Part shown: one piece after another, positions 5,618 to 17,068 of the stretch
How positions within the stretch are numbered: the first letter of the stretch is position 1
Layout: every line of letters begins with the position of its first letter
Source: Pseudanabaena mucicola FACHB-723
GTDB lineage: Bacteria > Cyanobacteriota > Cyanobacteriia > Pseudanabaenales > Pseudanabaenaceae
Reading direction: 5' to 3'
NCBI RefSeq assembly: GCF_014696385.1
Contig: NZ_JACJQB010000001.1
Location: forward strand, 1 to 64,000
Length of the DNA stretch: 64,000 nt
Position numbers and translations under genes: made by a program
Notes under the pieces: generated by a model
Seen by the model: only the letters and a program-made list of their open reading frames with translations
Database searches by the model: none
Told to the model about the DNA's origin: nothing

Positions 5618-6538
5618 CTAACACGCTCCAAAACCAGATAAAACCTTCGGAACAGTCATTAATAGGATTTTTAGATCTGACCATAAACTCCAACTACGCA
5701 GGTAACTTAAATCACACTCCGTAACCGCATCGAGATCAAGCATGGTCGATCTTGCGCTCACTTGCCAAGCACCTGTTACACCAGGCAATGATTTTAATCT
5801 TCTTTTGCCATCACCACTAATCCTAAGGGCATCATACAAAGCCCAAGGACGGGGACCCACAAGACTCATTTCTCCCCGTAAAACATTAAAAAGTTGAGGC
5901 AATTCGTCAAGACTGTACTTACGCATCCACTTACCAACATTGGTAATTCTTGGATCATCTTCACATTTATGCAGTCCAGTCTGACCAGTCATCACCAGAT
6001 GGTGTAACTTATCCGCATCAGTAATCATGGTGCGAAACTTGATGATTCGGAATAACTTACCATTTTCGCCAACACGCCATTGATAGAAAAATATATCCCC
6101 TTGTGACGTGCCGCCAATAATAGCGGCGAGGATGAGCATAATAGGACTAAGGATAATCAAGATGATTAATGCTGCTAGCCAGTCGGTAATACGCTTGATA
6201 CTCCATGATATAGCTCGGTTGTGCTGAGGAAGCTCACTAGCCTCTGGTAGATTTAAAAATACCGACTTATTTGATCTTTGGCATACATCTGCTAAGTTCT
6301 TGAGTTTCAATTCGCCGATCTCAGGTTCAACTAGAATCATATTCTTATCAGCAAAGTTATCTAGTGATTGATCTAGTGAGTTTTTGACAGACTCTAACCC
6401 TATCAAGCTCTTATCTAGTAGGGAGTTAACGAGCAGTCTACATTTGTATAAATAATTTGATGCATTCGTTAATATCGATCTTTTGGGGAGATTGATTAGT
6501 GCATCTTTTGACAATTTATTGACGATTAGACCAGTCAT
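5618..6538 (-). CDS. Bacterial sugar transferase (initiating glycosylphosphotransferase)
   Basis: Starts polysaccharide repeat-unit assembly by moving a sugar-1-phosphate onto undecaprenyl phosphate at the inner membrane. The 306-residue protein has about 105 N-terminal residues without recognised domain, then a hydrophobic helix (LAALIILIILSPIMLILAAII) and the conserved catalytic module: FRIIKFRTM, DDPRITNVGKWMRKYSLDELPQ, NVLRGEMSLVGPRP and PGVTGAWQVSGR-like text (here PGVTGAWQVSAR). It lacks the multi-helix N-terminal membrane domain of WcaJ-type proteins. It is upstream-controlled by the AAGTTAT repeats at 6735-6776 if these are an operator. Confidence 0.92.
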   Translation of the reverse strand: MTGLIVNKLSKDALINLPKRSILTNASNYLYKCRLLVNSLLDKSLIGLESVKNSLDQSLDNFADKNMILVEPEIGELKLKNLADVCQRSNKSVFLNLPEASELPQHNRAISWSIKRITDWLAALIILIILSPIMLILAAIIGGTSQGDIFFYQWRVGENGKLFRIIKFRTMITDADKLHHLVMTGQTGLHKCEDDPRITNVGKWMRKYSLDELPQLFNVLRGEMSLVGPRPWALYDALRISGDGKRRLKSLPGVTGAWQVSARSTMLDLDAVTECDLSYLRSWSLWSDLKILLMTVPKVLSGFGAC

Positions 6539-6734: not shown

Positions 6735-6776
6735 AAGTTAGTAAAAGGTAATACTAAAAGTTATATAAAAGTTATA
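6735..6776. promoter_or_regulatory. AAGTTA repeats at 11-12 bp spacing
   Basis: GTTA-like half-sites start at 6737, about 6748 (degenerate, GTAA), 6760 and 6771, so spacing is 11, 12, 11 bp. They lie about 200 bp upstream of the sugar-transferase start. Phasing of one DNA turn suggests tandem binding of an OmpR/PhoB-family response regulator; the protein is unknown. Matching arrays stand at 10690-10720 and 16782-16823. Confidence 0.5.
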
Positions 6777-6853: not shown

Positions 6854-6969
6854 TATAGCAAAACTTTTTTTGCTTAGGACATAAAACCAGAAGACGATTG
6901 GCTGCGCTCCGCGCAGCCAATCGTCTTCTGGCGTTTTGATTTGTACTAGCGAACTCTTGCCTTGCTATA
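6854..6969. repeat. MITE-like element with TATAGCA ends and central hairpin
   Basis: TATAGCA at 6854-6860 and its inverted copy TTGCTATA at 6962-6969 bound a 116-bp element. Inside each end lies TTAGGACA/TAGTACAAATCAAAAC in inverted orientation, then a perfect 21-bp-arm hairpin at 6897-6941 (CCAGAAGACGATTGGCTGCG, C; TCC loop). It sits between the kinase and sugar-transferase genes. Confidence 0.6.
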
Positions 6970-7060: not shown

Positions 7061-9244
7061 CTATTCGTCATCATCATCGTCTTTGACTGCGACTGATTTA
7101 TAGGTGTGGGGTAGTTCCTTCACAGCATTGGCAATAACACCAATTAAATTTAGCTTTTGGAGAACTGAGATTGCTTGCGAAAATTCACCACGGGTAATCC
7201 GATCAATACGTGCTACGGCAATAGTTGCACCACTGCAAGAGGCTATTTGAATTGTGTCAACTGTACCTAGCACAGGCGGTGAGTCAATAATTACCAGATC
7301 ATATTCCTGCTCAAAGTTAGAGATATATTGCTGCATACACTCAGCGCTGAGGAGAGCCACAGAATCACTGGGAATTGGTCCTGCGGTGAGAATATCAATA
7401 GTTGAGTTAGAAGATTGAATAACTTCTTGACTATTAATACTGCCTTGGCTAGCCAATAAGGTTGATAATCCCCGATCATTGGGTAAGTTGAGTTTTTTAT
7501 GTAAAGTTGGGACTCTCATATCACCGTCAATCAGTAATACCCGTTTATTCAGTCGGGCAGCACTGGTTGCTAAACCAAGCGCAATTGTTGATTTACCTTC
7601 CCCTGCGATCGCAGATGTGATGACAATTGAGCGAACATTCGGCTCTTGTGCATAGCTGCTGAGCTGAATGTTCTTAAAGATCAGATCTAAAGATTCGCGA
7701 AACGGTAGCCATTGCACTATTTCAATGGTAAGAGGGGAAATAGTCTGCCCTTTTAGAAACTGGGGCATGAAATTCGCACCTGACTCTTCAACCTGCATGT
7801 ACTGAGGAGTCATGCCCAATAGTGACAAGGAAGAAATCTGTTGCTCAAGTTCATCATAGGTGCGGACAGTATCATCTTGCATATCTCGGATAAAGGCTGC
7901 CATTCCACCGATAAATAGCCCCGCAACTAGCCCTAACAATAAGTTTCTGCGTAAAGCGTCCCCTGAATCTGTAAATCCAAGATTTGGCTCCTCAACAATC
8001 TGCCAATCAAAGCCACCACGGGCAATTTCTAGGGTGAGATCTTGACGATTTTTGATCAGTGTTTGTAATGTTTCTTGCTGGACTTGGAGCTTGGGCTGTA
8101 AATTTTCATATTCCCCCAATAACTTGGGCAAACGATTAATTTCTGCTTTGAGATTTCTTTCCTGTAATGCTAGGGATTCAAGCCTTGATTGCAACAAAGT
8201 CATTTGCGTTTGGGCTTCTACAATTTGATTGGCTAGCGCAAGGTCAACCCCACTCAGTTGATCCCCATTCCATTGAGATGCTCTGGATAAATCTGCATCT
8301 CCTAAAATGCTTCTTCTTTCCTCTTCGAGGCTAGCTTGTTGTTGATTAAACCGCAACTCAAGAGCCTCAACTATAGGAGTGCTAACTTGGAACCTAGCTT
8401 TTTCGCGATTAAGTGCCACTTCAATACCTTGCATTTCTGATACTAGTGCTTGATATCGCTGGGATTGGTTTAGGCGTGTCAACAAAACCGCATCTTCAGA
8501 AGATAGGTTTAATTTTTGTTGTAAAGATTGTAAACGTACACTTGCTTGGTCATATTCCAGTTTGGTACTGCGCTGTTGTTGTTCGATGCCATTTAATGCT
8601 GATGTGACTTCGGTCACTCTCTGAGTTGCATCAAATAAGTTATTGTTTCGTCGAAATGTTTCAATTGCCCCAGCAGTTTCATCAATGTTTTTTCTGAGAT
8701 CGGCGATTTGTTCGTCAATCCCCGCTAAGCCCGTCTGCAAACGCTTTTCTTGCTGTTCACGGTTATAATCTGTGTATACCTTTTGAAATGCTTTTAAAAC
8801 CTGTCGGCTTTTAACAGGATCTAGAGCGGTGTATTTTACTTCGACAATTTTGGTCTGGCTTTCTTTTTCTCCTAACATCCCCAGTTCTAGGGATTGTAAT
8901 TCCTCACTAGTAATATCAGGATATTCAGCCGCTAGTAAATTGGCAGCTTTTTGATACATGGAAGAGCTTTGTAGCAATGTTAGCTGTGTGGCATAGTCAA
9001 CCTGAACATTGGAATCAATAAATGTCGAAGATCTGGATCTATAGGCTGATTCGACTAATAAGCGCATGATACTGGTGTAGCGGGGCTTAGTATTAATATT
9101 CATGAACACTGCTATGACTAAGCCTAGTCCCAAGCCACCCAAAATCCAGAATCGCCTGCGGGCAAGAACAGCAAAAATTTTGCCATAACCAAGATCTTGC
9201 TCTGCGATCGCAAAATTAGTTGTTTGAGCAGCATTTACATTCAT
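7061..9244 (-). CDS. Wzc-like polysaccharide co-polymerase and tyrosine autokinase
   Basis: Inner-membrane protein that controls polysaccharide chain length and export and phosphorylates its own tyrosines. The 727-residue protein has a Wzz domain with a first membrane helix (about residues 31-48), a long coiled-coil periplasmic part (150-400), a second helix near 430-450, and a cytoplasmic BY-kinase with Walker A AGEGKST (near 550), Walker A' LLIDGDMR (near 570) and Walker B DLVIIDSPP (near 650). The C-terminus is acidic (DDDDDE) and has few tyrosines, unlike the tyrosine-rich tail of E. coli Wzc. It follows a glycosyltransferase gene by 48 bp in the same direction, probably one transcript. 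Confidence 0.93.
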   Translation of the reverse strand: MNVNAAQTTNFAIAEQDLGYGKIFAVLARRRFWILGGLGLGLVIAVFMNINTKPRYTSIMRLLVESAYRSRSSTFIDSNVQVDYATQLTLLQSSSMYQKAANLLAAEYPDITSEELQSLELGMLGEKESQTKIVEVKYTALDPVKSRQVLKAFQKVYTDYNREQQEKRLQTGLAGIDEQIADLRKNIDETAGAIETFRRNNNLFDATQRVTEVTSALNGIEQQQRSTKLEYDQASVRLQSLQQKLNLSSEDAVLLTRLNQSQRYQALVSEMQGIEVALNREKARFQVSTPIVEALELRFNQQQASLEEERRSILGDADLSRASQWNGDQLSGVDLALANQIVEAQTQMTLLQSRLESLALQERNLKAEINRLPKLLGEYENLQPKLQVQQETLQTLIKNRQDLTLEIARGGFDWQIVEEPNLGFTDSGDALRRNLLLGLVAGLFIGGMAAFIRDMQDDTVRTYDELEQQISSLSLLGMTPQYMQVEESGANFMPQFLKGQTISPLTIEIVQWLPFRESLDLIFKNIQLSSYAQEPNVRSIVITSAIAGEGKSTIALGLATSAARLNKRVLLIDGDMRVPTLHKKLNLPNDRGLSTLLASQGSINSQEVIQSSNSTIDILTAGPIPSDSVALLSAECMQQYISNFEQEYDLVIIDSPPVLGTVDTIQIASCSGATIAVARIDRITRGEFSQAISVLQKLNLIGVIANAVKELPHTYKSVAVKDDDDDE

Positions 9245-9292: not shown

Positions 9293-10393
9293 CTATGCCC
9301 TATGCTCTTTATCTATACAGAGTTCTGCTAGTAGCCTATCTACCTTAGCAAAAAAGACGGATTCTGAAAAATTAGAGATGGCATGATCTCGAATTTTAGA
9401 ATAGTCCCAAACAATAGATTGGGCTTCTATCACTGCATTTTTTAAAGATTCTACAGTTTGCTCCTCAAAAAGTATGCCTGTTAATCCTGAAATTTGGGTA
9501 TCCATAACACCACCTGCACCGTAGGCAATCACAGGTGTACCACTAGCATTGGCTTCGATTGGTACAAGTCCATAATCTTCTAGAGCGGCAATAATGACAA
9601 ACTTTGCTTTTGACATAAGATTACAGCGATCGCGATCGCTAACATGTCCTAGAAATCGGATATTTGCACCTGATTTTGCCTGCAATTTTTTTGTCTCAGG
9701 CCCTTCTCCCGTAATTATGAGTGGCATTGACAGAGAATTAAAGGCTTCAACGATAAGATCAAGACGCTTGTAACTAAGGTGTCTCGAAGATACAAGACAA
9801 TAATCATCTTTTTGATCTGAAAACACAAAGCGTTGGTCGTCAATTGGATAATTGATCACTACAGCATCTCTGTTGTAAGTTGCTTTAATGCGTTTGGCAA
9901 CGGTTGTGGAGTTGGCAACATAGTAATCAGGAGATTGAGAATAAAAAATATCCTGTTGACGCATCTTCCTGAAAAATAGCTCAATTATAGGTTTCAGAAA
10001 GCTATACATCCCATACTCTCGCAAGTATGTGTTTGTATCCCAAAGGAAACGTGTAATGTTATGACAAAAACAGACATGGATTGCATCAGGATGCTTTTGA
10101 ACACCTTTAGCAAAACTAGCACTGCTGCTTAGAATTAAGTCATACTTTTGAAGATTTAATCCACTAAAAGCGGCATAATAAAATGGCGCAAATAATCTGA
10201 AATACTTGCGAGTACCTACTATATTCTGCAAAAAAGTGGTACGTACTGCTCGATCTCCCATGAATATCGTATTTTGACGATCGTACACAGATGTATAAAT
10301 ATCTGCATCTGGAAAATGCTTGCATAGCAGTTCAAATACTCTTTCTGCGCCACCGCGCTGCGTAAGATAGTCATGAACTAGAGCTACTTTCAT
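9293..10393 (-). CDS. GT4-family glycosyltransferase
   Basis: Probable retaining glycosyltransferase that adds a sugar to a lipid-linked polysaccharide intermediate on the cytoplasmic side. The N-terminus MKVALVHDYLTQRGGAERV and the C-terminal GT4 region with EDYGLVPIEANASGTPVIAYGAGG (split here: EDYGLVPIEA, GTPVIAYGAGG) fit the GT-B fold, including the conserved E-X7-E motif. An upstream in-frame ATG at 10441 would add 16 residues; the family start MKVALVHDYL favours 10393. It is the first gene of a leftward pair with the tyrosine autokinase. Donor and acceptor sugars are unknown. Confidence 0.9.
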   Translation of the reverse strand: MKVALVHDYLTQRGGAERVFELLCKHFPDADIYTSVYDRQNTIFMGDRAVRTTFLQNIVGTRKYFRLFAPFYYAAFSGLNLQKYDLILSSSASFAKGVQKHPDAIHVCFCHNITRFLWDTNTYLREYGMYSFLKPIIELFFRKMRQQDIFYSQSPDYYVANSTTVAKRIKATYNRDAVVINYPIDDQRFVFSDQKDDYCLVSSRHLSYKRLDLIVEAFNSLSMPLIITGEGPETKKLQAKSGANIRFLGHVSDRDRCNLMSKAKFVIIAALEDYGLVPIEANASGTPVIAYGAGGVMDTQISGLTGILFEEQTVESLKNAVIEAQSIVWDYSKIRDHAISNFSESVFFAKVDRLLAELCIDKEHRA

Positions 10394-10689: not shown

Positions 10690-10720
10690 AAGTTATACAA
10701 AAGTTATCCTCAAAGTTATA
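10690..10720. promoter_or_regulatory. AAGTTAT repeats at 11-12 bp spacing upstream of STAND gene
   Basis: AAGTTAT occurs with GTTA starting at 10692, 10703 and 10715 (spacing 11 and 12). It ends about 40 bp before the ATG at 10761. Same motif and phasing as at 6735 and 16782, so likely the same regulator; inference. Confidence 0.5.
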
Positions 10721-10760: not shown

Positions 10761-13700
10761 ATGAAAGCCCATGAAGCGATGACATTTGCAGAGTTATCGT
10801 TAAAAAAACGGGGATTTAATCAAGTCGAAAAATCGATCTTTTTAGCGGTGTGGCAGGGAATGTCCTACGGCGAAATTGCTAAGCAAAGTGGTTATGAACC
10901 TGGATACATCAAGTTAGCCAGCCATAAGCTCTGGCATATGTTGACGGAGACATTTGGGGAAAAAGTGACCAAAAATTCTCTACAAAGTGTGATTCGTCGT
11001 CAGATGGAGTCCAGAAAAGTAAGTCTAGACGCTAGTTCCCCCGAAGCAGTTAGTCATCAAGATTGGGGAGAAGTGGTAGATGTTACCTTCTTTTATGGTC
11101 GAGAGTCTGAACTTAATATTTTAGAAAATTGGATTGAGGTTGATCACTGTCGCTTGATTGCAATTTTGGGGATGGGAGGATTGGGTAAAACTTCTCTTTC
11201 TGTCAAATTGGCTCACCATTTACAAAATAAGTTTGATTTTGTAATGTGGCGATCTCTAAATAATGTAAATACGCCAAGCGCAACCTTAGCCTCAGTCATT
11301 CACTTCCTATCTCAAAAACAAGAAATTCCCGATACTAGTGATCCCCAAGCCTTAATTTCTCGCTTAATGGAGTATTTGCAGCGTTATCGTTGTTTACTAG
11401 TATTAGATAACTTTGAATCAGTTTTAAAGGATGAGCTGCAAGCTGGTGCATATCGTAAAGACTATGAAAGCTACGGCTCTTTGTTAAGGAAAATTGGCGA
11501 AGTTTCTCACAACAGTTGTGTTGTCATTACCAGTCGCGAGATGCCAGAAGAAGTCGCGACTTTAGAGGGTGATGTTTTGCCCGTAAGAATTTTGCAACTG
11601 AACGGATTGGACGAAATTGCCGCCGAAAGGGTTCTGGAAGATAAGGGTGTCAAATCTATCTCTACGGAATTACATCGCCTAGTGGATTGGTATCGAGGTA
11701 ATCCTTTGGCGCTGAAGATTGCGGCAACTTCAATCAAAGAAATTTACTCAGGTAGTATTGAGCGATTTCTAGAACAGAAAACCATCATTTTTAGTGGCAT
11801 CAGTGAGTTAATTGGCCAGCAATATCAAAGGCTGACCGCCCATGAAAAACAAGTAATGCTCTGGTTAGCAATTAATCGTGAGCCAGTCCAGCCCGACGAA
11901 TTGCGTACCGATATTGTGCCAACAGTTGATCAAAATGAACTGATGATGTCGCTCCAGTCTCTCAAGCGTCGGTCATTAGTTGAGCATACGGCTACGGGTT
12001 TTACTCAGCAACCTGTGGTTATGGAGTTTGTCACCAATACACTAGTTGATCAGATTTATCGGGAAATTATCCAAGAACAGCCTTTAGGCTTGTTACCTAA
12101 TATTCAGTTGAAGTTAAATCAACAACTTTTCTATCTGCGCCACTATGCCCTAATTAAAGCTACGACAAAGGACTATATTCGCCAAAGTCAAATTCTCCTA
12201 ATTTTGGAACCCTTAGTTGCCAAGTTATTGGGTCGTTTGGGCAGTAAGCAAATGATTGCAAAGGAATTATTCCGAACATTAGAAGAGTTGCGCCGACGCG
12301 AGTTGCGACCAGATGGAGAGCTTAAATCGACTTTTGGGTATGGTGGCGGCAATATTATTAACCTGTTGTGCCATCTTGGGATCAATCTCACGGGCGCAGA
12401 CTTTTCGTATTTAGCAATCCGCCAAGCTTATTTGGCTGAAGTCAAGTTGCATCAAGTTAATTTTGCAAAGACTGATGTGATTAACTCAGTTTTTGCTGAG
12501 GTAATTGGTGGTGTCCTGTCAGTAGCTTTTAGTGCGAATGGGAAATTACTGGCAATTGGGGATACTAGAGGGGATATCCATCTTTGGCAAGTCAGTGATG
12601 GGAGACCGCTTCTCACCTATCGTGGTCATAAAGGTTGGGTTGTCTCTGTAGCGTTCAATCCTGAAGGTACTGTGCTAGCGAGTAGCAGTATTGATCAATC
12701 AATTAAGTTATGGGATGTATCCACAGGGGATTGCTTAAATACCTTACAAGGGTACATCGGTGCAGTGCAGTCTGTTGCATTTAGCCCTGATGGTAGAGTT
12801 TTGGCTAGTGGTCATGCTGATCGTACTGTGCGTCTATGGAAATCAGGACAATGTATTAAGACTTTGCATGGACATGAAGATATTGTCGAATCTGTTGTCT
12901 TTAGTCCTAAGGGTACTTTAATAGCTAGTAGCAGTGATGATTGCACAGTTCGTTTGTGGGACATTGAGACGGGAAAATGTCTGCGAGTTTTGACTGGTCA
13001 TACAGATATTGTGTGGTCAATTGCGTTTAGCCATAACGGTAATGTATTAGCTAGTGGCAGTGAAGATAAAACTACAAAATTATGGAAGATAGAGACAGGT
13101 AAATGTGTCCAGACTTTTACTGGTCATACCCATACAGTGTTTGCGGTGGGGTTGAGTCATGATGGTGCGATATTAGCAACGGGTAGTGGCGATCGCACGA
13201 TCCGACTTTGGGATCTCCACACTAGTCAATGTGTGAAGGTACTAACAGGTCATAATCATTGGGTACGCTCTGTAGCCTTTCATCCCCATCGTCAAATTTT
13301 GGCGAGTAGTAGTGGTGATGAAATGATCAAGCTTTGGGAAATAGATACAGGATTATGTGTACGAACTTTTCAAGGTCATACGGGTAGGTCATGGACAGAT
13401 AAAAGCACTGTTAATGCTGGTAGTGGTCACATCGATCAAAATTTTAATGAGCATCTATTAAATCTTTGGGAGATTACATCGGGGCAGCAGTTTCGGATCT
13501 TACAGGGCTATACAAATGCTGTAAGGTCGGTCGTATTCAACCCAGAGCAGAGCCTGTTAGCAAGTGGGGGAGATGATTCAATTATTCGTCTTTGGGATGT
13601 GCAATCTGGTAAATGTATTCGCACTTTGCAAGGACATGCTGGACATGTCTGGGAAGTTGTATTTAGCCCTAGTGGCACATTACTTGCTAGTTGTGCGGAG

Positions 13701-14486
13701 GATTGTACTGTTAAGTTATGGGACGTTAGTAGTGGTAATTGCTTAATCACAGTTACGGAGCATCCTGATTTAGCAAGGACATTAATCTTTAGTCACGATG
13801 GTAAGTTGTTGGCGACTGGAGAAACTAGTAAGGTGATCAAACTAAGAGATATTGTGACTGGGGAATGTCTCCAAGTTTTACATGGTCATAGGGAAGCGAT
13901 TGTATCGATCGCATTTAGTCCTGATAATCGCCATCTAATTAGTAGTAGCCGTGATAAAACGCTGAGGCTTTGGGATACTAAGACGGGGCAATGTATTCAA
14001 AGTATTGAGCAGTCATTTGTGTTGACTTCTAATGTAGTTTTCGTACCGCAAAGGTCAGATTTGGCTTTTGTTTGTGGAGAGAAGACGGTTTATCGTTGGG
14101 ATACCAAAAGTAATGAGTTAATTCCTGAACGAATTGGTAATGGTCATAATATTCTAACTATTGCTGTTAATTCTGTAACTGAACTACTAGCTAGTGCAGG
14201 AGAAGATTCACAAATAATCATTTGGAATTGGCAGAGTGGTGATGTGGTTAAACGGCTAGTTGGACATACTGGGAATATTTATGCGATCGCATTTTCACCC
14301 GATGGTAAGTGGCTGGTTAGTAGTAGCCGCGATGAAACGATTCGACTTTGGAATGTTGCCACTGGTGATTGTGTAACAACTTATCGTGAGCCACGTCCCT
14401 ATGAGGGGCTAAATATTAATGAGGCAACGGGTTTCACTGCTGCCCAAAAGGCAAAATTGATCGCGTTGGGCGCGATTGAGGAGTAA
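10761..14486 (+). CDS. HTH-NB-ARC-WD40 STAND NTPase
   Basis: Large cytoplasmic signalling ATPase of the STAND class; function unknown. Of 1241 residues, the first ~85 form a helical, HTH-like domain common in cyanobacterial NB-ARC proteins (EKSIFLAVWQGMSYGEIAKQ). The NB-ARC part has GRESEL, P-loop GMGGLGKTS near residue 135, Walker B CLLVLDNFES, sensor VVITSRE and GNPLAL. From about residue 590 come some 14-15 WD40 repeats, enough for two seven-bladed propellers; the blade near 880 (text around GHIDQNFNEH) is degenerate. The tail INEATGFTAAQKAKLIALGA is typical of this protein type. It interrupts a polysaccharide region and has AAGTTAT repeats just upstream. WD40-STAND proteins in bacteria are linked to signalling and some to phage defence; neither is shown here. 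Confidence 0.92.
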   Translation: MKAHEAMTFAELSLKKRGFNQVEKSIFLAVWQGMSYGEIAKQSGYEPGYIKLASHKLWHMLTETFGEKVTKNSLQSVIRRQMESRKVSLDASSPEAVSHQDWGEVVDVTFFYGRESELNILENWIEVDHCRLIAILGMGGLGKTSLSVKLAHHLQNKFDFVMWRSLNNVNTPSATLASVIHFLSQKQEIPDTSDPQALISRLMEYLQRYRCLLVLDNFESVLKDELQAGAYRKDYESYGSLLRKIGEVSHNSCVVITSREMPEEVATLEGDVLPVRILQLNGLDEIAAERVLEDKGVKSISTELHRLVDWYRGNPLALKIAATSIKEIYSGSIERFLEQKTIIFSGISELIGQQYQRLTAHEKQVMLWLAINREPVQPDELRTDIVPTVDQNELMMSLQSLKRRSLVEHTATGFTQQPVVMEFVTNTLVDQIYREIIQEQPLGLLPNIQLKLNQQLFYLRHYALIKATTKDYIRQSQILLILEPLVAKLLGRLGSKQMIAKELFRTLEELRRRELRPDGELKSTFGYGGGNIINLLCHLGINLTGADFSYLAIRQAYLAEVKLHQVNFAKTDVINSVFAEVIGGVLSVAFSANGKLLAIGDTRGDIHLWQVSDGRPLLTYRGHKGWVVSVAFNPEGTVLASSSIDQSIKLWDVSTGDCLNTLQGYIGAVQSVAFSPDGRVLASGHADRTVRLWKSGQCIKTLHGHEDIVESVVFSPKGTLIASSSDDCTVRLWDIETGKCLRVLTGHTDIVWSIAFSHNGNVLASGSEDKTTKLWKIETGKCVQTFTGHTHTVFAVGLSHDGAILATGSGDRTIRLWDLHTSQCVKVLTGHNHWVRSVAFHPHRQILASSSGDEMIKLWEIDTGLCVRTFQGHTGRSWTDKSTVNAGSGHIDQNFNEHLLNLWEITSGQQFRILQGYTNAVRSVVFNPEQSLLASGGDDSIIRLWDVQSGKCIRTLQGHAGHVWEVVFSPSGTLLASCAEDCTVKLWDVSSGNCLITVTEHPDLARTLIFSHDGKLLATGETSKVIKLRDIVTGECLQVLHGHREAIVSIAFSPDNRHLISSSRDKTLRLWDTKTGQCIQSIEQSFVLTSNVVFVPQRSDLAFVCGEKTVYRWDTKSNELIPERIGNGHNILTIAVNSVTELLASAGEDSQIIIWNWQSGDVVKRLVGHTGNIYAIAFSPDGKWLVSSSRDETIRLWNVATGDCVTTYREPRPYEGLNINEATGFTAAQKAKLIALGAIEE

Positions 14487-14506: not shown

Positions 14507-15640
14507 TTATAAAATTTGTGTATAAACTGATTTGACTTGCTTAGCAATTACTTGCCAGTCGTAGTTTTGTCTCACATAGGTTTGACATGCTTCTGCACTG
14601 GGCATCTGCCGCTTACCAGACAGAGCCTCAATCATGCCCTTAGCTAATTGGTCTGTGGTGCTACCTTCTAAAACCAGATCTTGAGAAAACGGTTGTAAAA
14701 TCTCAGGAATACCACCAATTGGTGTGCCTAATACGGGTGTGCCTGCTGCTAAGGATTCAATTACAATTAGTCCAAATCCTTCTAGGGCAACGGTTGGCAC
14801 AATACTCATCTCTGCGGCTCGATAAGCGATTGCAAGGTCTTGATCGGGAATAAATCCCAATAGTTGTACATGATTTTCTAGTTGTAATGATTGAATTTGC
14901 GATCGCAAGTTGTCTGCAATTGCCCCTTTACCAGCAATTAGTAATAGGACATCAGGATATTGATCCTTCACTATTGCGATCGCCGCAATTAAATTTTCTA
15001 ACCCCATACGCTGTACCAATCGCCTCACACACAGGATAATGCGGCGACCTCTTTGCCAACCAAGATTCTTCCTTGCCTGCTCCCGCGTCAAATCCAGATT
15101 AAATTCTGCTGTGTCAATCCCTCCCCCAACGATAAAAATCTTGTTTAGCGGTACACCATAGCTTTGATGCAAAACCTGTCGAAATGATTCCGACAAGACG
15201 ATAAAGGCACTTGCTCTCTGATATACCAACTTCTCAATTACCCATTTCCCCCAGACCGATAGCTTGCTTGCCCCCTCTGCTTGACTCTCTAAAGCCCAAG
15301 GTCCGTGAAAATGAATTACTAATGGTCGCTTGCCAAGGAGATCTAGTACAGGAAATGTATAGAGTGCGAAATGAGATGTGACCACATCAAACTGCGAAGT
15401 TGTCAATATTTGCTTAACTGCTTTTCTTACCCCTAGTAATCGTTTCCAGATCGAGCTGTTTGCGATCGCAAATGGCTGTACCTTACCTCCCGAAGTGGCA
15501 GAGATATGCTCAGATCCAATCACTAAACCATTTACCTCAACCCCAACTTGGGGTAAATGCTTGACGCACCCGTAGTAAACCCTCGCCAATCCCCCCGCCT
15601 CTTCTAGAAACCAGCCTGTACCTAGCTGTAATGTTTTCAT
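14507..15640 (-). CDS. GT4-family glycosyltransferase
   Basis: Probable glycosyltransferase of the GT-B fold, 377 residues from MKTLQLGTGWFLEEAGGLARV. The glycine-rich N-terminal loop (EEAGGLARVYYGC), VVTSHFALY, the central GGGIDT and the C-terminal EGFGLIVIESLAAGTPVLGT are GT4 hallmarks, with the E-X7-E pair in the last. An in-frame start 33 bp upstream exists, but the ATG at 15640 gives the normal N-terminus. It points towards the STAND gene and ends 20 bp from it without an obvious hairpin. Likely part of the surface-polysaccharide set; sugar specificity unknown. Confidence 0.9.
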   Translation of the reverse strand: MKTLQLGTGWFLEEAGGLARVYYGCVKHLPQVGVEVNGLVIGSEHISATSGGKVQPFAIANSSIWKRLLGVRKAVKQILTTSQFDVVTSHFALYTFPVLDLLGKRPLVIHFHGPWALESQAEGASKLSVWGKWVIEKLVYQRASAFIVLSESFRQVLHQSYGVPLNKIFIVGGGIDTAEFNLDLTREQARKNLGWQRGRRIILCVRRLVQRMGLENLIAAIAIVKDQYPDVLLLIAGKGAIADNLRSQIQSLQLENHVQLLGFIPDQDLAIAYRAAEMSIVPTVALEGFGLIVIESLAAGTPVLGTPIGGIPEILQPFSQDLVLEGSTTDQLAKGMIEALSGKRQMPSAEACQTYVRQNYDWQVIAKQVKSVYTQIL

Positions 15641-15671
15641 AATTTTTCTAAATATCGGTTGTGTGTTACAC

Positions 15672-15704
15672 AAAAGCCGAAGGTAGTAGTACTACCTTCG
15701 GCTT
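15672..15704. terminator. Terminator hairpin after the exported-protein gene
   Basis: AAAGCCGAAGGTAGTA pairs perfectly with its inverted copy around one G, a 16-bp stem. It lies downstream of the leftward gene 15776-16408 and upstream of the next leftward gene. Confidence 0.75.
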
Positions 15705-15775: not shown

Positions 15776-16408
15776 CTAGGCGATAGTTGCGCTAGTTTCT
15801 TTTTTGTTGCGCTTGAGAGCCTTGCTACCAAAGAAAGCAGCAGCCAAGGCAATACCAGGAACGACAGCAGGAACTGGAACTGGAACAGCACGGACTCTGA
15901 ATTTGGCATCATTATGGTCTCTGTCGCCGCCATTAATAATGTCTTCAATTGTAAAGGTATACCAACCGTCACTGCTAGGGCTAGAACCTGTTAGCCTAAA
16001 GTGTGGTGTGTTACTAGGAGGGTAAACAGAATTAGAGTAGACAGAATTGTAACCAACAGGAATAGAACTACCTTCAGCAAGACCCTTAGTACCCCATCCT
16101 ATGATGTACAAACCAGAAGTCGCAGCCCAGCTGCCAGACCCAACAATGCCACTAGGGGTTACAGATCCATCATTGCTATTAGGCTCAACAAACAAAGTTT
16201 GTACCACAGTAGACGGAGTAGATTGAGTCACAAACAGTTGTGATTTAAAAGCACCGTCAGTGGGAGGAATAAAGTCAAACTCAAACTGGCTACCGTTAAG
16301 GTTGAAACCATGAAACAAGAGAGTAGCAGCTTCTGCAGATGCTCCAATCACAACAGAGCTAGCAGCAGCGACAATTCCTAATCCGAGAGTAAGTGCAGAA
16401 GATTTCAT
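15776..16408 (-). CDS. Exported protein with PEP-CTERM-like C-terminal sorting tail
   Basis: The 210-residue protein starts MKSSALTLGLGIVAAASSVV with a signal peptide likely cut after ASAEA. The mature part is Ser/Gly/Pro-rich with no catalytic motif. The C-terminus has VPVPAVVPG, a hydrophobic helix (IALAAAFFGSKAL) and a basic KRNKK stretch, then ETSATIA. This three-part end resembles PEP-CTERM/PTPA-CTERM sorting signals recognised by exosortases, though the canonical PEP is replaced by VPA/VPG. A longer open frame to 16531 exists, but 16408 places the signal peptide at the start. Role probably in the envelope or extracellular matrix; inferred. Confidence 0.75.
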   Translation of the reverse strand: MKSSALTLGLGIVAAASSVVIGASAEAATLLFHGFNLNGSQFEFDFIPPTDGAFKSQLFVTQSTPSTVVQTLFVEPNSNDGSVTPSGIVGSGSWAATSGLYIIGWGTKGLAEGSSIPVGYNSVYSNSVYPPSNTPHFRLTGSSPSSDGWYTFTIEDIINGGDRDHNDAKFRVRAVPVPVPAVVPGIALAAAFFGSKALKRNKKETSATIA

Positions 16409-16781: not shown

Positions 16782-16823
16782 AAGTTATATATAAGTTATA
16801 TATAAGTTATATACAAAGTTACT
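16782..16823. promoter_or_regulatory. Four AAGTTAT repeats at 11-12 bp spacing
   Basis: GTTA starts at 16784, 16795, 16806 and 16818 (spacing 11, 11, 12). The array ends about 27 bp before the ferredoxin ATG and is about 375 bp upstream of the divergent exported-protein gene. It is the clearest of the three arrays; a tandemly bound response regulator is the simplest reading. Confidence 0.55.
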
Positions 16824-16849: not shown

Positions 16850-17068
16850 ATGGCTTATACGATTATTTCAAACATATGTGAGGGCATAGCTGACTGTGTG
16901 CCAGCCTGTCCAGTTGCTTGTATTGAGCAGGGGCAAGGCGCGAATGAAAAAGGAACGATTTGGTTTAAGATTGATGCCGATATCTGCATTGACTGTGGCG
17001 TTTGCTTGCAGGTTTGTCCGATTCAAGGTGCAATCTTGCCAGAAGAACGTCCAGAATTAGTGATTTAA
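16850..17068 (+). CDS. Two-cluster ferredoxin (4Fe-4S type)
   Basis: Small soluble electron carrier of 72 residues. Cysteines C10, C16, C20 with the CP motif at 20-21 and C24 form one half, C46, C49, C52 and C56 (CIDCGVCLQVCP) the other; as in other dicluster ferredoxins each cluster takes its fourth ligand from the opposite half. The five-residue gap between C10 and C16 departs from C-X2-C and suggests a 3Fe-4S or altered cluster in the first site, as in seven-iron ferredoxins. Closely similar short proteins are widespread in cyanobacteria. The start is fixed by MAYTIISNIC. Confidence 0.9.
   Translation: MAYTIISNICEGIADCVPACPVACIEQGQGANEKGTIWFKIDADICIDCGVCLQVCPIQGAILPEERPELVI

Follow-up and report, generated by a model that had tools for sequence, protein, structure and literature searches.

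STAND regulators and proposed tandem operators

XssQ from Synechocystis sp. PCC 6803 has been described as a STAND activator of the synechan (xss) polysaccharide cluster, with a gel shift on xssE (PMC8205485). Its reported consensus, AAGTTXXAC, occurs singly or in tandem (PMC8205485), and through such sites XssQ activates glycosyltransferase and sulfotransferase genes (PMC8205485, PMC13125312); together with XssR, it is reported to be sufficient in a foreign host (PMC13125312). STANDs are described as multimerising once triggered (PMC6468293). Tandem operators are also known from PimR, for which the published descriptions give three heptamers separated by 4-nt spacers, and a 10-bp period at a secondary site (PMC5930380, PMC10936776). 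A 2024 survey of cyanobacterial sigma factors names NB-ARC and WD40 among the accessory domains of sigma70 homologues (PMC11119718). The literature found treats such proteins, in its accessible text, by domain content, in connection with conflict or cell death, or as sigma-factor variants, and a search of open-licence PMC papers found no description of operators of the STAND family considered here.

The locus analysed in this work lies in a 64-kb window, this being the whole stretch of DNA under study. It holds three arrays of the heptamer AAGTTAT, which are probably, as judged from sequence, the operators of a STAND protein encoded at 10761-14486. This protein takes the place of the OmpR/PhoB-family regulator proposed in the first-pass annotation as the putative reader of the arrays.

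AAGTTAT arrays in a surface-polysaccharide region

The units of the three arrays, all on the plus strand, were read from the sequence, and their spacings agree with those given in the first-pass annotation. Array 1 (6735-6775) consists of AAGTTAG at 6735, AGGTAAT at 6746 and AAGTTAT at 6758 and 6769, with spacings of 11, 12 and 11 bp, and lies 5' of the minus-strand gene for a bacterial sugar transferase (5618-6538; PF02397 by Pfam). Array 2 (10690-10719), with AAGTTAT at 10690, 10701 and 10713 (spacings 11 and 12), is located in the gap between the plus-strand STAND gene and a minus-strand family 4 glycosyltransferase gene (9293-10393, encoding 366 residues from an ATG start). Array 3 (16782-16822) holds AAGTTAT at 16782, 16793 and 16804 and AAGTTAC at 16816 (spacings 11, 11 and 12), in the gap between a minus-strand gene for an exported-looking protein (15776-16408) and a plus-strand gene for a 4Fe-4S ferredoxin (16850-17068). 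The arrays occupy three gaps of one surface-polysaccharide region, which also encodes, on the minus strand, a Wzz/Wzc-type polysaccharide protein with a P-loop ATPase domain (7061-9244) and a second family 4 glycosyltransferase (14507-15673), the latter downstream of the exported-looking gene and in the same direction. All three arrays are direct repeats with a period of about 11 bp, as in the operators of the OmpR/PhoB family, whose classic binding pattern is heptad direct repeats with an 11-bp period.

The pair pattern AAGTTATN{4,5}AAGTTAT has five matches in the window, all within the three arrays, and none in 100 dinucleotide shuffles. The lone heptamer is mildly enriched (21 matches against a shuffle mean of 11.9, with 1 of 100 shuffles as high), and the pair pattern with two mismatches allowed is hardly enriched (14 against 8.6, with 8 of 100 as high), so that the signal consists in the exact phased repetition. 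A scan of the genome (3.96 Mb) for AAGTTAT(N4-5)AAGTTAT, the check suggested together with the original claim, returned six matches, five of them in the arrays, and one for the reversed control. The sixth match, at C1:277279 with a spacing of 12, lies between two genes read as purine-degradation genes and is probably due to chance. The exact pattern undercounts arrays, since the same genome has another one after RimO, ending in AAGTTAC; a purely local regulon was therefore discarded, the exact pattern being local in this genome, yet the relaxed pair occurring also after RimO. The arrays of the window are not due to chance, and they are conserved in the genus.

Besides the arrays, a strong inverted repeat (GAAGACGATTGGCTGCGC / GCGCAGCCAATCGTCTTC) was observed at about 6888-6932, 3' of the Wzc-like gene, and hairpin-like sequences were seen by eye at the same place in two related loci (L070, L077).

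Conservation, polarity and targets in Pseudanabaena

Across 26 Pseudanabaena genomes, the two-unit pattern yields 192 hits and its reversed control 20, which together with the promoter blocks described below bears out the expected conservation in relatives. The three-unit AAGTTAT pattern occurs in 16 of these 26 genomes, with the reversed control in 1; for the 362 other genomes, the two counts are 7 and 14. The idea that the AAGTTAT version is also enriched beyond the genus was thus rejected, three of the seven matches lying, moreover, inside open reading frames (G008, G214, G385). In one of the seven (G295, L270:10001-10042), four copies of AAGTTATAC, 11 bp apart, precede a glycosyltransferase gene in a polysaccharide cluster of another family, with no STAND or XssQ match in the surrounding 19.7 kb.

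In 11 loci picked by STAND homology alone, there are 18 same-strand AAGTTAT pairs 7-45 bp apart, 13 of them at 11 bp, and none for the reversed word. At the sugar-transferase promoter, a four-unit block, roughly TATAACTTTTATATAACTTTTnGTATGACCTTTTACTAACTT in gene sense, is kept in 10 aligned promoters (the window and nine of the 11 loci, the stretch from the remaining two being without a sugar-transferase gene); TTGCTAT follows the block in all ten, and the flanks diverge. A second four-unit block is found after RimO, before a gene for a STAS protein. Among 14 genomes, the exact AAGTTA pair is present at this site in nine, including one without a recognised STAS reading frame (G239); the block has one weaker unit in G246 and G052 and is decayed in G179 and G213, and G124 has a different gene there.

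A total of 75 arrays was examined, comprising those of the window and of 60 regions from nine of the 25 other Pseudanabaena genomes, among the matches listed, with G108 and G117 only partly taken. Most of them (65) are intergenic, in agreement with a placement upstream of genes rather than inside them; ten lie in reading frames, five of those in one IS-like element. This element, with a frame of 439 to 451 aa and AAGTTATCGAAAAAGTTAT inside it, was seen in several Pseudanabaena (L089, L090, L091, L105, L110 and L168), and inflates array counts.

The intergenic arrays have co-directional flanking genes in 32 cases, divergent ones in 27 and convergent ones in three, with a flank missing in the other three. 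Where the flanks are co-directional, 30 of 32 arrays read opposite to the gene and two the same way (binomial p 2.5e-7); as these cases include orthologous sites and are not all independent, polarity was also counted by target family, where it holds in 13 of 15 (binomial p 0.007). The two exceptions are a 1004-aa adhesin-like protein and a 125-aa protein. Among the targets are sugar transferases, glycosyltransferases and the STAS protein, as well as exported-looking proteins of small size, large proteins of surface-like type and one NRPS-like protein, names that were read from the sequences except for the window genes and the proteins scanned with NCBIfam. These observations support, from sequence, what had been claimed of the arrays as a set, namely that a tandem-binding protein reads them as a single regulon in which the STAND gene is joined with cell-surface genes, and they add a fixed polarity. 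Two further arrays were noted: five successive AAGTTATGTAT-type units before a gene for a 1783-aa protein (L126:5660-5710, G232), which suggest array growth by slippage, and, in the genome of the window, three AAGTT units at 11-12 bp just 5' of a gene read as the HrcA repressor (C67:66029-66056, L036).

In the window, the polarity likely points to the minus-strand genes as targets, that is, the sugar transferase for array 1, the glycosyltransferase at 9293-10393 for array 2 and the exported-looking protein at 15776-16408 for array 3. Of the genes named originally, which were the sugar transferase, the STAND gene and the ferredoxin/exported protein pair, the ferredoxin is probably not a target. 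Ten relatives have the ferredoxin. Of these, L071 and L073 alone keep a match to the exported-looking gene, and both show degenerate GTTAY repeats by eye; the other eight show none, and the strict pair pattern has no match near the ferredoxin in any of the ten. Array 3 thus seems to go with the exported-looking gene. The protein encoded by the latter has, by eye, a signal-peptide-like start and a C-terminal hydrophobic segment, and it gave a weak DUF4114 match below Pfam's cut-off. A PEP-CTERM label for the exported-looking targets was considered and dropped after an NCBIfam scan of six proteins: L096 came within half a bit of the cut-off, L097 matched a related model below the cut-off, and neither the window protein nor the one beside the STAND paralogue matched a PEP-CTERM model.

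The STAND protein encoded beside array 2

The STAND gene (10761-14486, plus strand), the proposed array reader, encodes a protein with an HTH (about residues 1-91), an NB-ARC domain (122-321) and WD40 repeats (about 583-1209). The NB-ARC domain was matched by Pfam with an E value of 7.7e-13, WD40 matches were obtained too, and the P-loop sequence GMGGLGKT is present. The predicted DNA-binding domain (10761-11033, plus strand) would form a five-helix HTH of the LuxR/sigma-region-4-like kind, with GYIKLASHKLWH as its likely recognition segment. Against Pfam, the HTH gave a weak Sigma70_r4_2 match (E 0.05, below the cut-off), and sigma region 2 was absent from the first 560 residues. The AlphaFold2 model, of residues 1-110, consists of helices without any strand and has a pLDDT of 79-91 over residues 1-80 in ten-residue blocks. 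The top Foldseek matches of the HTH were FixJ, StyR and region 4 of SigE, with mostly LuxR-type and sigma-4 HTHs retrieved at a best E value of 0.2; a PDB sequence search gave one match (E 0.3). A 460-residue model with a mean pLDDT of 58 was left unused.

The first 441 residues are 72-78% identical in the 11 loci mentioned above (eight labelled as Pseudanabaena, one as Phormidium tenue and two as uncultured cyanobacterium), which makes a Pseudanabaena the very likely source of the window, and orthologues of at least 70% identity are found in 22 of the 26 Pseudanabaena genomes. In 21 of these 22 orthologues, a pair of units (relaxed A[AG]GTTA[TC]) is present within 150 bp of the start, and the remaining one has GGGTTATATAAAAGTTAT. 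In 16 of the 21, this pair lies 41 bp ahead of the start codon, and the array ends 24 bp before it in most orthologues, a proximity that suggests an autoregulation that would probably be negative. Of the 75 arrays examined, 8 lie next to the gene for the STAND protein.

Four genomes are without an orthologue. Two of them, G179 and G213, each 99% complete, lack intergenic AAGTTAT arrays, and the single match in G213 falls inside a reading frame; the two genomes are nearly identical after RimO, may represent one event, and are also without XssQ-like matches at E 1e-60. On the other hand, in G239 (99% complete), without the STAND and without a close Wzc match, the pair after RimO is intact and an array of three units precedes an uncharacterised gene, and in G310 (82% complete) six of seven matches are intergenic, two of them of identical sequence, with a shortened 81-aa Wzc-like frame beside an array. 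The arrays of these two genomes call for a recent loss of the STAND, an assembly gap or another reader, and are compatible with a recent loss of the locus. Because both retain arrays, the argument from co-occurrence is weakened, and presence and absence alone were not accepted as proof that the STAND is the reader.

A paralogue and relatives with their own arrays

The same genome encodes a STAND paralogue (C1:127198-130791), 44% identical over query residues 4-439. Its arrays have another half-site, AAGGTCNGA, at 10-11 bp, and are found before the paralogue itself (AAGGTCAGAAAAGGTCGGATCAAGGTCGGAT, its units lying 117, 107 and 96 bp ahead of the ATG) and 5' of the adjacent exported-looking gene (C1:130932-131540). 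Both read opposite to a minus-strand neighbour, a polarity as in the AAGTTAT arrays.

Repeats of this kind are also seen at the promoters of more distant relatives. The sample comprised 11 plasmid loci, 59 diverse genome loci, hand-picked from the best-scoring relatives with the HTH covered, and seven Pseudanabaena paralogue loci, 77 in total; 73 starts were found, and 72 of them were kept and reduced to 53 non-redundant 250-bp upstream regions, taken regardless of repeats. Self-similarity with z>3 was found at lag 11 in 13 of the 53 regions, at lag 10 in three and at other lags between 6 and 30 in 0-2. As repeats had been seen beforehand in some of the seven paralogue loci, the count was repeated without these, with similar values (lag 11 in 12 of 52 regions, lag 10 in three, elsewhere 0-2). 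Among 152 non-redundant upstream regions of neighbouring genes, used as control, lag 11 was found in three and other lags in 0-6, which gives Fisher p values of 2.0e-6 (13/53) and 6.3e-6 (12/52) for the lag-11 excess at STAND promoters; a strong lag-11 repeat is missing in 40 of the 53, or 40 of the 52, family promoters.

In our reading, the half-sites differ between STANDs whose predicted recognition segments differ. AAGTTAT goes with GYIKLxSHKLWH, AAAGTCGGA or AAGGTCGGA with (Y/H)IKDxGxxLW, and AAGTTCCGGTG, at a Calothrix plasmid STAND, with YIKQHVGPELW, all pairings having been made by reading. In other genera, 11 AAGTC-type arrays at STAND promoters (duplicates dropped) have a minus-strand neighbour, and in five of these (L228, L229, L242, L244, L261) the neighbour's start resembles an export signal by eye. 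Relatives over the first 441 residues are present in 195 of 388 cyanobacterial genomes, covering 92 of the 160 genera sampled, at E values up to 1e-85, with some matches lacking the HTH part. We lean slightly towards the view of a large cyanobacterial family of Apaf-1-like transcription factors that combine a LuxR/sigma-4-like HTH with NB-ARC and WD40, each with its own 11-bp-phased array built of a shared AAGT/AAGGT core and family-specific flanks. The array would lie in the gap that separates the STAND gene from a divergent one, often for an exported protein, and the protein, once activated, would assemble along one face of the DNA as an oligomer that switches on surface and matrix genes.

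Which protein reads the arrays

AAGTT is already the target of XssQ, a STAND of a different kind, so that the AAGTTAT motif alone cannot name its reader. An XssQ-type HTH-NACHT STAND encoded elsewhere might read the arrays, with the local NB-ARC-WD40 STAND merely as a target, although this is rather unlikely. The reported consensus AAGTTXXAC (PMC8205485) shares its AAGTT core with the window units and fits those such as AAGTTATAC at 10690, but others are AAGTTATAT or AAGTTATCC. The genome has XssQ-like genes in trans, and G310 combines a strong XssQ homologue with arrays and no close STAND orthologue. However, the best copy in the genome of the window has an in-frame TAG, none of the seven matches is on the window's contig, and the best-scoring group, with matches from residue 1 at E below 1e-130, covers 19 of the 26 genomes but is absent from the array-bearing G052, G124, G144 and G278; G052 does have a weaker XssQ relative, which spans residues 3-777 (E 1.4e-111), and the other three have just matches from residue 88 or later, or weaker relatives. 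The presence pattern of XssQ may accordingly be said to fit the arrays somewhat worse than that of the STAND, and an XssQ-type reader leaves unexplained the 11-bp repeats at STAND promoters of other genera and the different half-site of the paralogue. Nor is the window STAND XssQ itself: BLAST between the two gave 24.3 bits (E 0.047) over the NTPase segment alone and nothing in the HTH, falling short of homology over HTH and NACHT, and a search of the window for the partners XssS and XssR returned just receiver-domain matches in one 1823-aa CheA-like protein. The XssQ-like HTH-NACHT gene with the in-frame TAG (C8:60826-63126; L020, L027) is 38% identical over its full length, and a 10.5-kb contig of the same genome carries AAGTTGTAC twice at 11 bp together with a third AAGTT, which is a tandem XssQ consensus (C64:6759-6785; L035, L037).

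An OmpR/PhoB-family response regulator, the reader originally claimed, is unlikely: the heptad repeats with an 11-bp period and the fixed polarity fit this family, but one OmpR-type query gave no match over its DNA-binding domain in the 146 proteins flanking the 75 arrays; three of these proteins matched at the receiver domain, and the window gave a receiver domain alone, with no winged-helix match. Such a regulator would also leave unexplained why repeats of this type, with varying half-sites, occur at STAND genes of other cyanobacteria. That the arrays are tandem-repeat DNA with no regulatory role, accumulating by slippage in AT-rich intergenic regions, is highly improbable. Some arrays are near-perfect including their spacers, as in the five successive AAGTTATGTAT units of L126; nevertheless, half-sites are kept while spacers differ among arrays, the four-unit block is conserved when its flanks are not, and both the polarity (30/32) and the two-unit counts (192, reversed control 20) speak against it. 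The STAND protein at 10761-14486 is preferred as the reader, and more likely to be so than a mere member of the regulon, because of the 8 of 75 arrays that it flanks, the units in 21 of 22 of its promoters, the different array of its paralogue and the 11-bp repeats of its relatives. At the level of sequence, this rests on the arrays, their conservation and polarity, their presence at the STAND promoter, the different paralogue array and the family-wide 11-bp signal, from which we infer direct binding, oligomerisation, activation, autoregulation and a sensed signal.

Proposed mechanism and comparison with known systems

In the mechanism proposed for the STAND as reader, the protein would be at rest as ADP-bound monomers, until a signal received via the WD40 repeats opens the NB-ARC core. 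Each N-terminal LuxR/sigma-4-like HTH would then read one AAGTTAT half-site. With units one helical turn apart (mostly 11 bp), several HTH domains would be aligned on one face of the DNA, as expected if the activated NB-ARC/WD40 protein oligomerises. The oligomer, placed with a fixed polarity just upstream of the core promoter, would contact the RNA polymerase and activate the genes read away from the array, which in gene sense carry ATAACTT repeats: the sugar transferase, the glycosyltransferase and the exported-looking protein in the window and, in other members of the genus, further surface and exported-looking proteins.

If the family-wide view is true, an apoptosome-like machine would serve as a gene switch that is modular, specific to its locus and provided with an operator code that can be read. 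Many such STANDs would gain a testable job in the transcription of surface and matrix genes, with the operator arrays as a handle for predicting their targets. This would tie apoptosome-type signalling ATPases to the control of slime and biofilm in photosynthetic bacteria, and would offer modular activator-operator pairs for engineering.

Several known systems resemble the one proposed here in part. MalT-type STAND activators belong to the STANDs that multimerise; MalT itself has a LuxR-type HTH at its C terminus and a TPR sensor, whereas the window STAND has an N-terminal HTH and WD40 repeats. Sigma70 region-4 proteins with NB-ARC or WD40 domains resemble the window STAND, whose HTH gave the weak Sigma70_r4_2 match; the accessible text of the survey, however, treats such proteins as sigma-factor variants and names no operators or targets (PMC11119718), and the window STAND is without a Pfam sigma region 2 in its first 560 residues. 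The SARP-LAL or large SARP regulators from Streptomyces, such as PimR and AfsR, share with the window system a STAND-type ATPase, here the NB-ARC domain, and direct repeats with an 11-bp period, the reading of the arrays being predicted in the present case. Their descriptions give an OmpR-type DNA-binding domain and, in AfsR, a TPR sensor, in contrast to the LuxR/sigma-4-like HTH and WD40 repeats of the window STAND, whose residues 1-110 are strandless in the model, with LuxR-type and sigma-4 HTHs as the best, though weak, fold matches rather than an N-terminal OmpR-type (SARP) domain; they control actinobacterial antibiotic clusters, and the putative targets here are cyanobacterial surface genes. 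The closest functional parallel, by analogy, is XssQ, though it is not an orthologue. Like the window STAND, it has an N-terminal DNA-binding domain and a gene that adjoins a sugar transferase of a polysaccharide cluster, but its published description gives a NACHT domain and mentions no WD40, in place of NB-ARC and WD40. By the same analogy, the window STAND is predicted to work like XssQ and the SARP-LAL regulators from Streptomyces, being a member of neither group.
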